Shown here: piece after piece, positions 41,429 to 45,786 of the stretch
How the letters are laid out: every line of letters starts with the position of its first letter
How positions within the stretch are numbered: position 1 is the stretch's first letter
Origin: Phenylobacterium sp.
Lineage (GTDB): Bacteria > Pseudomonadota > Alphaproteobacteria > Caulobacterales > Caulobacteraceae
DNA length: 64,000 nucleotides
Assembly (NCBI RefSeq): GCF_022402485.1
Contig: NZ_JAKRSA010000020.1
Location: forward strand, 62,001 to 126,000
Reading direction: 5' to 3'
The notes under the pieces: generated by a model
Seen by the model: only the letters and a program-made list of their open reading frames with translations
Database searches by the model: none
Told to the model about the DNA's origin: nothing
Made by a program: the position numbers and the translations under genes

Positions 41429-41923
41429 CTAGAGCGCCCGGCCCCGGTTGATCTTGTAGAACACGCCGCCCTCGTCCTCGCCGGAGAGTTCGAGAAAGCC
41501 CTCGATGGTTTTCACGCCGTAATCGAAGACCACGCCCTTTTCCGTCCTGACCTCGATGAACTGCATCGGGCTCGGATTGAGGTGGAACGGGCAGTCTGGC
41601 GGATAGGCCAAGAGGACGAAGTGGGTCTGGGTCTTGCCGTTCTGCAGGGGCATCATGTAGCCCGAGACCTTGATCCGCTTGCCCTTGAGCGCCAGCACCC
41701 CGGGGGGGAAGTCCGGCTTGGACATCAGATAGCCCCGGGAATCGGTGCGGGTGATTTCCTTTGTGGACTCCAAAAGGGCCCAGGATACGCCGCCGCGGGG
41801 CGTCGGGGCCGGTTGCCAGACGCTCTCGGTGGGCGCGGCAGGACGGGCCTGTAGCGCAGCCCCAGCCGACGTAGGCTGGAGGGCCAGGGCCAGGGTCAGG
41901 GCCAGCAACAGCCGGACAAACAT
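41429..41923 (-). CDS. DUF3299-domain exported protein
   Basis: Signal peptide; LKGKRIKVSGYMMPLQNGKTQTHFVLLAYPPDCPFHLNPSPMQFIEV. Confidence 0.82.
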   Translation of the reverse strand: MFVRLLLALTLALALQPTSAGAALQARPAAPTESVWQPAPTPRGGVSWALLESTKEITRTDSRGYLMSKPDFPPGVLALKGKRIKVSGYMMPLQNGKTQTHFVLLAYPPDCPFHLNPSPMQFIEVRTEKGVVFDYGVKTIEGFLELSGEDEGGVFYKINRGRAL

Positions 41924-41936
41924 CAGAAACAGCTCC

Positions 41937-43268
41937 TTATCGGGTGTCGGCGAGGGTCTTGGCGATATCGACCCGGAAGACCTTGAGGGCCGGGATCAGG
42001 GCTGCCAGAGCGCCCATGCTGATAGCGGCCAGCACAATGAGCAGTTCAGCGGGCTCAAACCGGGCGGCGGTCAGCCCCATGTCCTGAAGTTGCGGGAAGG
42101 TCGCTGCCGAGACCGCCACCACGCCGTGACCCACCGCCACTCCAAGCAGGGCACCGGCGGCGGCCAAGAGCACGCCTTCTAAGACAATATGGCCAAAGAT
42201 GGCGGGGGGGCGAGCGCCCATGACCCGCAGCATGGCCATGTCGCCTTCCCGCTGCCGCAGGGCGGAATAGAGGGCGACAAAGATCGACAGACCGCTGGTG
42301 GCCATCAGCAGGACGGCGAAGGCGCGGATCGCATCGATCCCTACGCCCAGCAGGGAGAGCAGCCGGGTCATCTCCACGGCCGGTGCCGCCGCCTGGAGCT
42401 GGGTCTGCTTGTTGATGAAGCTGGGCAGGCGGACCGCGGCCATCGAAGAGCGGTACTTGATCAGCAGGGCGGTGACCTCAAGCTCACCACTGCCATGCGC
42501 GGCATGCTCGCCCTCAGCCCCGTGATCATGATCCTCGGCGGCATGATCCTGCTGGCCGTCGCCATCGTGATCATGGTCGTCATGGGCATGGGTGTCATGA
42601 TCATGGCCTGCATGATCATGATCCTCAGCAGCTCCCTCAGCGGCGGGCGGGGTAAAGCCATGGGCGGCCCAGATGCTGCCGACCGGGGTGATGATCAGGC
42701 GGTCGAGCACCGTGCCTGTCGGCGCCAGGATGCCCACCACTTCGTAGGGGGTCTCCTCGTGCGCATGGCCATCCCCCGACAGGCCATGGGAGCCAATGAA
42801 CTTCTGGCCAAGGCCAGCCCCGGTCTGCCGTGCCACCTGGGCACCCAGGACGGCCTGGTAGTTTCCGGTGAAAACCTGGCCTTGGGCGATGGTTCCGCCA
42901 AAGTGGTCGATATAGGCCGCCTCGGTTCCGACAATCCGGTAGCCTCTGAAGGAGTCCCCCAGGGCCAGGGGAATGACCTCGGCCACCGTCGGGTCCGACC
43001 GCAGCATCTCGACGGTGGCCAGGGGAATATTCCCGGTGGGCACGTCGACCTGGTAGATGCTCGACAAGATCAGCTGCAGGGGGGAACCCTTGGCGCCCAC
43101 CACCAGGTCGATGCCTCGGGCGTCGCGCTCGAACCGCTCACTGAGCTGGCTGGAGAACAGCACCAGGATCACCAGGGTGGCGACACTGAGGGTAAGCAGA
43201 AGAATGTTCAGCGCCGTATTCAGCGCCCGGTCGCGGAGATAGGCGAGGGAAAGGCCAGCCAGGGTCAT
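41937..43268 (-). CDS. FtsX/MacB-like ABC transporter permease with His/Asp-rich extracytoplasmic loop
   Basis: TM at N-terminus, three C-terminal TMs with FtsX-like spacing; loop AAEDHDHAGHDHDTHAHDDHDHDGDGQQDHAAEDHDHGAEGEHAAH. Confidence 0.9.
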   Translation of the reverse strand: MTLAGLSLAYLRDRALNTALNILLLTLSVATLVILVLFSSQLSERFERDARGIDLVVGAKGSPLQLILSSIYQVDVPTGNIPLATVEMLRSDPTVAEVIPLALGDSFRGYRIVGTEAAYIDHFGGTIAQGQVFTGNYQAVLGAQVARQTGAGLGQKFIGSHGLSGDGHAHEETPYEVVGILAPTGTVLDRLIITPVGSIWAAHGFTPPAAEGAAEDHDHAGHDHDTHAHDDHDHDGDGQQDHAAEDHDHGAEGEHAAHGSGELEVTALLIKYRSSMAAVRLPSFINKQTQLQAAAPAVEMTRLLSLLGVGIDAIRAFAVLLMATSGLSIFVALYSALRQREGDMAMLRVMGARPPAIFGHIVLEGVLLAAAGALLGVAVGHGVVAVSAATFPQLQDMGLTAARFEPAELLIVLAAISMGALAALIPALKVFRVDIAKTLADTR

Positions 43269-43933
43269 GCGCTTACGCCCGGGGCCGCGAGGGTGAAGGT
43301 GCGGGAAAACCTTTCCCGCAGGCGATTGTCGTGGGTGGCGATCAGCAGGGTGGCACCGGTGGCCTCAGCGGTCTCCAGAAGCAGGTCCGCCATGGCGACG
43401 GCGTTGGCGTCATCCAGGGCCGAGGTCGGCTCGTCAGCGACCACAAGCGCAGGCTGGGCGCACAGGGCGCGGGCGATGGCGGCCCGCTGGCCTTCCCCCT
43501 GGCTCAGCTCCCGGGGCCTTGCGTCGGCGCGGTGGGTCAGCCCGACCTGGGCGATCAGCCGGTCGATGAGGGCTGAGTCATTGCGCCCCAGGGCCAGGGT
43601 CTGGGCCAGGGCAAGGTTCTGGCGCACGCTGAGCGCGCCGATCAGACGCAGGGTCTGGAACACCACTCCGATGGTCCGGCGTCGCAGCTGGTCGCGCTGG
43701 GCGGCGGGCAGGGCGGACATGACCGTACCGTCAATCTTCACCTCCCCCGATGAGGGGGTGATGAGGCCGGTGATGACATTGATCAGGGTGGTCTTGCCGC
43801 TGCCTGACGGCCCCAGCAACAGGGTGTGCTCACCCCGAAGGGCGGTGAAGGCCGGGGCGGCCATCACACAGCGCCCTGCAATGTCATGGCGGAGGTCGCG
43901 GACCTCAATCAGCGGTTCGGCGGTCGTCGTCAT
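43265..43933 (-). CDS. LolD/MacB-type ABC transporter ATP-binding protein
   Basis: LLLGPSGSGKTTLINVITGL, LSQGEGQRAAIARAL, LVVADEPTSALD. Confidence 0.95.
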   Translation of the reverse strand: MTTTAEPLIEVRDLRHDIAGRCVMAAPAFTALRGEHTLLLGPSGSGKTTLINVITGLITPSSGEVKIDGTVMSALPAAQRDQLRRRTIGVVFQTLRLIGALSVRQNLALAQTLALGRNDSALIDRLIAQVGLTHRADARPRELSQGEGQRAAIARALCAQPALVVADEPTSALDDANAVAMADLLLETAEATGATLLIATHDNRLRERFSRTFTLAAPGVSA

Positions 43934-44473: not shown

Positions 44474-45175
44474 ATGCGTCAGTTCACCGAACTCGCCTAC
44501 CATGAGACGCCCCTGGGGGCGCTCAGCCTGCGACGGCGACGGATGTTGGGGCTGGATATTGAGGTGCTGGAGGTCAAACTCGGGGAAGACTTCCTGATGT
44601 CCAGCCTGTTCACCGCCGGTGAGAGAGCCCTTGCGAACCTGGCGATCGCTGCAGCCCCGGAGGGGCGTTTGGATGGCCTAGTCGGCGGACTGGGCCTGGG
44701 CTACACGGCCGCCGCAGCCCTCGATCATGTGCGGGTGAACAGCGTGTTGGTCATCGACGTGCTGCCTGAAGTGATCGGCTGGCATGAGGCTGGCCTGGCC
44801 GATCTTGGCCCCAGGCTGGTGGCCGATCCCCGCTGCCGGCTGCAGGAGGGCGACTTCTTTGCCATGGCTCGAAGCGGCGCGGCGCCTGCGCCAGGGCGGT
44901 TTCATGTGGTGGCGGTAGACATCGATCACTCTACCGAGGCCTGGCTGAATGCGGCCAATGGGGATCTCTACACCGAGGCTGGACTGCGCAGCCTGAAGGC
45001 ATGGCTGCATCCTCACGGCGTGTTCGCGCTCTGGTCGGACGCCGCTCCGGATGCTGAATTTCTGGCGCGGATGGGGCAGGTGTTTCCCAGGGTCGAGGCC
45101 GAGGTGGTGGCCTTTGACAATCCCCTTCGGCACGCCGAGGAAACCTGCACCATCTACCGGGGGTGGGCCGAATGA
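44474..45175 (+). CDS. Spermidine synthase-like (polyamine aminopropyltransferase family) protein
   Basis: YHETPLGALSLRRRRMLGLDIEVLEVKLGEDFLMSSLFTAGERALA; GLGLGYTAAAALD; VVAVDIDHSTEAWL. Confidence 0.82.
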   Translation: MRQFTELAYHETPLGALSLRRRRMLGLDIEVLEVKLGEDFLMSSLFTAGERALANLAIAAAPEGRLDGLVGGLGLGYTAAAALDHVRVNSVLVIDVLPEVIGWHEAGLADLGPRLVADPRCRLQEGDFFAMARSGAAPAPGRFHVVAVDIDHSTEAWLNAANGDLYTEAGLRSLKAWLHPHGVFALWSDAAPDAEFLARMGQVFPRVEAEVVAFDNPLRHAEETCTIYRGWAE

Positions 45176-45786
45176 TCGCGCCGGACGCCTCTGAGGTCAG
45201 CGACCTGCACCGCGAGCGACTGGAAACAGTGGCCGGTCTGCTCCTGTCCCATGAGGCGCGCAGCGTCTGTGACCTGGGCTGCGGCACGGGTGCCCTGCTG
45301 GAACGTTTGATCCTCGAGCCGCAGTTCGAGCGCCTGATCGGGGTCGAGCAGTCCCTGCCGGCCCTGGAGCGACTGCAGGCGCGGTTGGGTGCCCAGGCCT
45401 CGCCGCCGCGCCTGTGCCTCTGGCATGGATCGTTCACCGTGCCCGACAGGCGGCTGACCGGCCTCGACGCGGCCGTGATGATGGAGACCCTCGAGCATGT
45501 GGACCCTGAACACCTGTCGCTGGTGGAGCGGGCCGTGTTTGCGACCGCCCGGCCAAGGCTGGTGGTGATCACCACGCCGAATGTGGAATGCAATGGGCTG
45601 TTGGGGGTGCCAGCGCACCGGTTTCGCCATCCCGACCATCGCTTTGAATGGCCCCGGGCGCGTTTTGCCGCCTGGGCTCAGGGGGTTGCGGCGCGTCAGG
45701 GTTACACGGTCAGCCTGGGAGGCATCGGCTGGCATCATCCCCGGTTTGGTGCGCCAACCCAGACCGCCTGCTTCACGCGTCCCTAG
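45172..45786 (+). CDS. Hen1-like small-RNA 2'-O-methyltransferase domain protein (stand-alone)
   Basis: VCDLGCGTGALLERL; METLEHVDPEHL; RPRLVVITTPNVECNGLLG; FRHPDHRFEWPRARFAAWAQGVAARQGYTVSLGGIG match Hen1 catalytic/metal motifs; ATGA overlap with upstream gene. Confidence 0.85.
   Translation: MIAPDASEVSDLHRERLETVAGLLLSHEARSVCDLGCGTGALLERLILEPQFERLIGVEQSLPALERLQARLGAQASPPRLCLWHGSFTVPDRRLTGLDAAVMMETLEHVDPEHLSLVERAVFATARPRLVVITTPNVECNGLLGVPAHRFRHPDHRFEWPRARFAAWAQGVAARQGYTVSLGGIGWHHPRFGAPTQTACFTRP

Follow-up and report, generated by a model that had tools for sequence, protein, structure and literature searches.

The locus described here raises the question of what a bacterial Hen1 methyltransferase domain does when it is encoded alone. 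The gene, hen1, lies in a Phenylobacterium stretch of 64,000 nucleotides from contig NZ_JAKRSA010000020.1, and this whole stretch is called the window. The Hen1 methyltransferase domain is held in common with the Pnkp-Hen1 RNA repair complex, whereas the genome of the window had no match to Pnkp or Hen1_L. An earlier note on this DNA had proposed a non-repair role for the protein, which is plausible. On balance, the protein is probably an autonomous 3'-terminal ribose 2'-O-methyltransferase that works outside RNA repair and protects or marks RNA 3' ends.

The open reading frame of hen1 comprises 204 codons (Table 1). The ATG and the stop codon of the preceding gene overlap as ATGA, which was read directly. 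A GTG located 9 bases upstream is an alternative start, but the ATG was favored because of this overlap and because the matching overlap is kept at the same place, as GTGA, in a close relative of the same genus (G121). The S-adenosylmethionine (SAM) motif, DLGCG, was located at residues 34-38, and the predicted metal ligands are E105, E108, H109, and H156. The first confident helix of the AlphaFold2 model starts at residue 6; therefore, the gene consists of the methyltransferase domain and little else. In most stand-alone members the start codon is placed 2-5 residues ahead of the domain, which marks the short form as native. Scanning for promoters and terminators around hen1 gave nothing clearly above chance.

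The protein was matched by TIGR04074 (bacter_Hen1) with 220.8 bits (E 2.4e-65), over model positions 262-462 of 462 only. This score is below the curated equivalog cut-off of 340 bits, which can be reached only with the N-terminal half that is missing here. The one comparable annotated gene, on a Comamonas plasmid, was named 'methyltransferase domain-containing protein', probably because the model used for naming needs the half that is absent. The best sequence matches in the PDB were four chains of bacterial Hen1 methyltransferases (E 1e-40 to 1e-42), followed by human HENMT1 (1e-29) and then Arabidopsis HEN1 (1e-20). The AlphaFold2 model, built with 36 related sequences as input, had a mean predicted local distance difference test score (pLDDT) of 94.6. 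In a fold search of this model against the PDB, Hen1 structures made up the entire top 11 (E 1e-17 to 1e-24), with the next family at 1e-10, i.e., the class I SAM fold is most similar to Hen1 structures.

The four predicted metal ligands were invariant in 30/30 stand-alone and 79/79 full-length Pnkp-type Hen1 sequences. They correspond to E132, E135, H136, and H181, the metal ligands of human HENMT1 (PMC10781085). Further residues common to RNA-acting Hen1 were unchanged, i.e., TTPN with N141, R152-H153, FEW, R162, and W168, and the Hen1-specific motifs were invariant in all 30 stand-alone sequences. Positions specific to the stand-alone forms were H13, T106, and G145. The earlier note had claimed a signature set of METLEHV, TTPNVECN, and HPDHRFEWPRARFAAW; all three are present, and the TIGR04074 and PDB matches place them far beyond chance. 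Its use of ExxEH as a mark of Hen1 does not hold for that motif alone, which is also carried by a zinc-ribbon methyltransferase described below, but holds in combination with RHxxHxFEW and TTPNxExN. Its description of a methyltransferase-only Hen1 of about 204 aa agrees with the limitation of the TIGR04074 match to the methyltransferase half. Loss of the metal site, for which it had suggested a structural check, was not seen; the Hen1 fold is retained in the model, and the Glu/Glu/His/His ligands are retained in the sequence. For Clostridium thermocellum Hen1, mutagenesis has reportedly shown that the isolated domain is active and that the metal-site residues are essential.

The earlier note had found no repair partner in the window and had named a Pnkp elsewhere in the genome as a refuting result. 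The absence extends to the whole genome, in searches for Pnkp, Hen1_L, RNA_ligase, Piwi, and RtcB; neither Pnkp nor an Argonaute was found. No Pnkp above cut-off was detected in any of the 19 stand-alone-Hen1 genomes checked, i.e., that of the window (G000) and 18 others, some of which are incomplete metagenome assemblies; a control Caulobacter genome was positive. Among 150 genomes of the same order, full-length Hen1 was found in nine and Pnkp in exactly those nine, and none of the seven genomes with methyltransferase-domain-only Hen1 had Pnkp. These seven, including that of the window, also showed no Hen1_L (PF12623), no RtcB, and no Piwi (PF02171) above cut-off. RNA_ligase (PF09414) was not found in them either; this negative is weak evidence, as the Pnkp ligase of G054, a control genome, likewise escaped this model, and T4 Rnl1-type and 2'-5' ligases and T4-type Pnkp were not searched. 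The ligase type of G054 is covered by the Pnkp model. As a side observation, roughly a dozen genomes in the order encode proteins that match only the central phosphatase part of Pnkp (approximately positions 160-428) with 340-400 bits, and these genomes mostly lack full Pnkp.

Scanning of one genome per species gave 80 Hen1-like loci, 18 of them stand-alone. Among 385 genomes of the class, the stand-alone form was found in six and the full form in six. In a maximum-likelihood tree of 72 Hen1 domains including human HENMT1, all 30 stand-alone sequences were placed on one side of one branch (support 98/88). Human HENMT1, which has a long branch and an unsure placement, was dropped from a second tree and the Comamonas plasmid copy was included; 31 stand-alone and 41 full-length sequences were then split with support of 100/99, in every bootstrap tree. 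Because the tree is unrooted, it is compatible with either loss or gain of the N-terminal half. The members belong to alpha-, beta-, and gammaproteobacteria, Myxococcota, and Desulfuromonadales, and none of the stand-alone members examined has the N-terminal ligase-activating domain. Purifying selection was detected in close stand-alone pairs (pN/pS 0.15-0.39; 0.38 for the window and G121). Judged from sequence, stand-alone Hen1 is a separate, conserved proteobacterial branch apart from the Pnkp-linked Hen1s. The hosts at L032, L039, L071, L048, and L047 appear to be from soda lakes or saline sites, judged from genus names and entry titles.

Domain content, clade, active-site conservation, absence of the searched repair partners, and recurrent neighbors were computed; what we infer beyond them concerns catalysis, RNA as the substrate, end protection, and the roles of partners. 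The protein very likely methylates RNA 3' ends. SAM would be bound at the DLGCG motif, and E105, E108, H109, and H156 would hold a metal by which both hydroxyls (2' and 3') of the terminal RNA nucleotide are positioned, so that the methyl is placed on the 2'-O. The substrate would have to carry a free 3'-OH beforehand, because no Pnkp-type end-healing enzyme was found. The N-terminal half of bacterial Hen1 has been described as a domain that activates the ligase (PMC4411300); its loss would therefore match that of the ligase. Because both are gone, the methyl would stay on the free 3' end and may shield or mark the RNA against 3' exonucleases, tailing, or re-cleavage. Plant microRNAs (miRNAs) and animal Piwi-interacting RNAs (piRNAs) keep the methyl on a free 3' end.

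The commonest neighbor of stand-alone hen1 is a class I methyltransferase gene with an N-terminal CxxC...CxxC zinc ribbon. It overlaps or directly precedes hen1 in nine loci (L029, L030, L031, L035, L036, L041, L043, L057, and L125), is head to head with hen1 in L027 and L071, and is decayed in L047. Eighteen of the 30 stand-alone genomes carry this gene, adjoining hen1 in 11 and elsewhere in seven. Within the order, five of the seven genomes with the zinc-ribbon gene were also among the seven with stand-alone Hen1 (p 7e-7 by genome, 0.008 by genus). The strongest functional lead is this co-inheritance, which extends beyond adjacent genes. The nearest PDB sequence matches of the zinc-ribbon protein were weak and to UbiG. 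The protein also contains an ExxEH motif and, further along, a conserved His.

In the window, the gene directly upstream of hen1 encodes a spermidine-synthase-fold protein and is likely co-translated with hen1. No Pfam match was obtained for this protein, and its sequence weakly matched polyamine aminopropyltransferase. Its AlphaFold2 model had a pLDDT of 88.3, and every PDB fold match listed was an aminopropyltransferase. The pair is also found in G121, and the four remaining genomes sampled from the genus had close homologs of neither gene. In G080 and Chelativorans, a homolog of the spermidine-synthase-fold gene directly precedes the zinc-ribbon methyltransferase gene; therefore, the three genes are joined in a triangle. 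This protein as an obligatory partner was rejected: close homologs occur in 18/150 genomes, including only 3/7 with stand-alone Hen1 (p 0.04, uncorrected for kinship). Homologs elsewhere adjoin unrelated genes, and many genomes carry them without Hen1. The link to Hen1 outside the genus of the window is weak.

The Comamonas plasmid and G080 have a common cassette, i.e., SulP transporter, universal stress protein, DksA-like zinc finger, cfa, Hen1, NUDIX, and nucleoside monophosphate (NMP) kinase. In L034, L047, L136, and L143, SulP and universal stress protein genes also lie close to hen1 or to the zinc-ribbon gene; the cassette is missing from the window. It suggests a stress-related setting, with little weight because SulP and universal stress genes are common. 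A divergent gene set in the window encodes an ABC ATPase and a permease with an extremely His- and Asp-rich loop, likely a metal-related transporter.

Table 1. Coordinates of the stand-alone Hen1 gene, its neighbors, and related features
Feature	Coordinates	Strand	Remarks
Stand-alone Hen1 methyltransferase domain, 204 aa	45172..45786	+	ATG 45172, final codon 45781-45783, stop 45784-45786; TIGR04074, PDB matches, AlphaFold2 model, clade
Spermidine-synthase-fold protein, 233 aa	44474..45175	+	Stop overlaps hen1 start (ATGA 45172-45175)
ABC ATPase and permease set	41429-43933	-	Likely metal-related transporter
Zinc-ribbon methyltransferase	L041:202-873	+	
Zinc-ribbon methyltransferase	L036		Upstream of hen1
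Zinc-ribbon methyltransferase	L136:6824-7513	-	
Zinc-ribbon methyltransferase	L145:6379-7068	-	
Comamonas sp. C11 plasmid cassette (betaproteobacterial)	L169:3621-14472		Alphaproteobacterial counterpart L028
Stand-alone Hen1 of G083	L031:9247-9807		In-frame stop
Pnkp phosphatase-part protein (example)	G143:C4:93714-94454		

The zinc-ribbon methyltransferase in much of the lineage, or the spermidine-synthase-fold protein in the window, probably acts on or presents the same RNA. It is a tentative idea, somewhat short of an even chance, that these genes form a proteobacterial RNA 3'-end modification system apart from repair and Argonautes. Hen1 would 2'-O-methylate free 3' ends, and the zinc-ribbon methyltransferase (or, in the genus of the window, the spermidine-synthase-fold protein) would add a second modification or RNA recognition. 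The product would be a 'cap' serving a similar purpose to the one on piRNAs and miRNAs.

Several points weigh against an autonomous RNA-end methyltransferase outside repair. Distribution is patchy, with stand-alone Hen1 in 2/6 genomes of the genus of the window, and the genome of the window lacks the zinc-ribbon partner. Ligase types such as T4 Rnl1-type and 2'-5' lay outside the families searched. Some cassettes put nucleotide enzymes (NMP kinase and NUDIX) beside hen1. HEN1 has also been grouped near UbiG and similar small-molecule methyltransferases (PMC1397878), which makes a small substrate conceivable.

On this last ground, the protein would be a Hen1-derived methyltransferase now acting on a nucleotide, nucleoside, or dinucleotide, with the metal site gripping the ribose hydroxyls. 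The closeness of HEN1 catalytic domains to UbiG-type enzymes, the NUDIX hydrolase and NMP kinase of the Comamonas plasmid and G080 cassettes, and the small-molecule (aminopropyltransferase) fold of the neighbor in the window are consistent with it. We consider it unlikely, since the residues beyond the metal site that are common with RNA-acting Hen1 are unchanged, though H13, T106, and G145 differ.

A somewhat less probable explanation is an RNA repair pathway with a missed ligase, in which Hen1 would mark the cleaved tRNA 3' end and an unrelated ligase would seal it. Characterized bacterial Hen1s act in repair, and a split repair system with distant genes, Pnkp1-Rnl-Hen1, has been described (PMC4411300). 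However, the Pnkp, RtcB, and Hen1_L searches and the weaker RNA_ligase search were negative in the genome of the window, no Pnkp was found in the 19 genomes of the lineage, and the ligase-activating domain is gone in every stand-alone member examined. A functionless leftover of a decayed Pnkp-Hen1 operon, to which the patchy distribution and the in-frame stop in G083 might point, is very improbable and was rejected because the stand-alone forms make one clade instead of scattered truncations, with an invariant active site and purifying selection; coupling to the upstream gene is also conserved. The early stop in G083 is an assembly error or a recent pseudogene, and its zinc-ribbon neighbor is intact.

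Two other candidates were rejected. For phage origin, no match was found in 50,697 phage genomes, and on the viral contigs that were recovered, the Hen1-like proteins are longer and include N-terminal regions. One of these contigs (L167, 335 kb) encodes a distant Hen1-like protein with such a region, and an adjoining ORF (open reading frame) resembles RNA ligase by eye; this is perhaps a phage-borne repair set. For an anti-phage defense family, the PADLOC match was weak and partial, i.e., 24 bits to mad2 in the SAM-binding region only.

Compared with known systems, the domain itself is already known, whereas the architecture, genomic setting, and clade differ from those of characterized bacterial Hen1. 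The Hen1 domains of Anabaena variabilis (3jwh and 3jwj) and Clostridium thermocellum (3jwg and 3jwi) have the same fold, SAM motif, metal ligands, TTPN, and RHxxHxFEW, with 38-41% identity to the protein of the window in structural alignment. Unlike in these, the domain in the window is the whole gene, has no ligase-activating N-terminal domain and no Pnkp operon, and belongs to a separate clade. In the Capnocytophaga Pnkp1-Rnl-Hen1 system (4xrp and 4xru; PMC4411300), the Hen1 gene is likewise apart from the other repair genes; the alignment to the protein of the window was weak (E 0.002). Animal HENMT1 and plant HEN1 have the same catalytic domain and metal ligands and methylate free RNA ends without ligation. 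These enzymes act on piRNA and miRNA, whereas the genome of the window had no Piwi match. In a 2006 survey of HEN1, the bacterial members were only from Clostridium, Streptococcus, Nostoc, Anabaena, and Kineococcus (PMC1397878). No description of stand-alone bacterial Hen1 or its clade was found in the searchable literature, whose coverage is incomplete, so this absence is not proof.

The distinct clade and the recurrent methyltransferase neighbors go beyond the earlier note. Until now, bacterial Hen1 has been regarded as the component of an RNA repair complex that carries out methylation. A clade of catalytic-domain-only forms without the searched repair partners implies bacterial RNA 3'-end methylation for another purpose. 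The bacterial enzyme, being short and single-domain, would also be convenient for labeling RNA 3' ends. The stand-alone clade also bears on the origin of eukaryotic HEN1, which acts on free ends.
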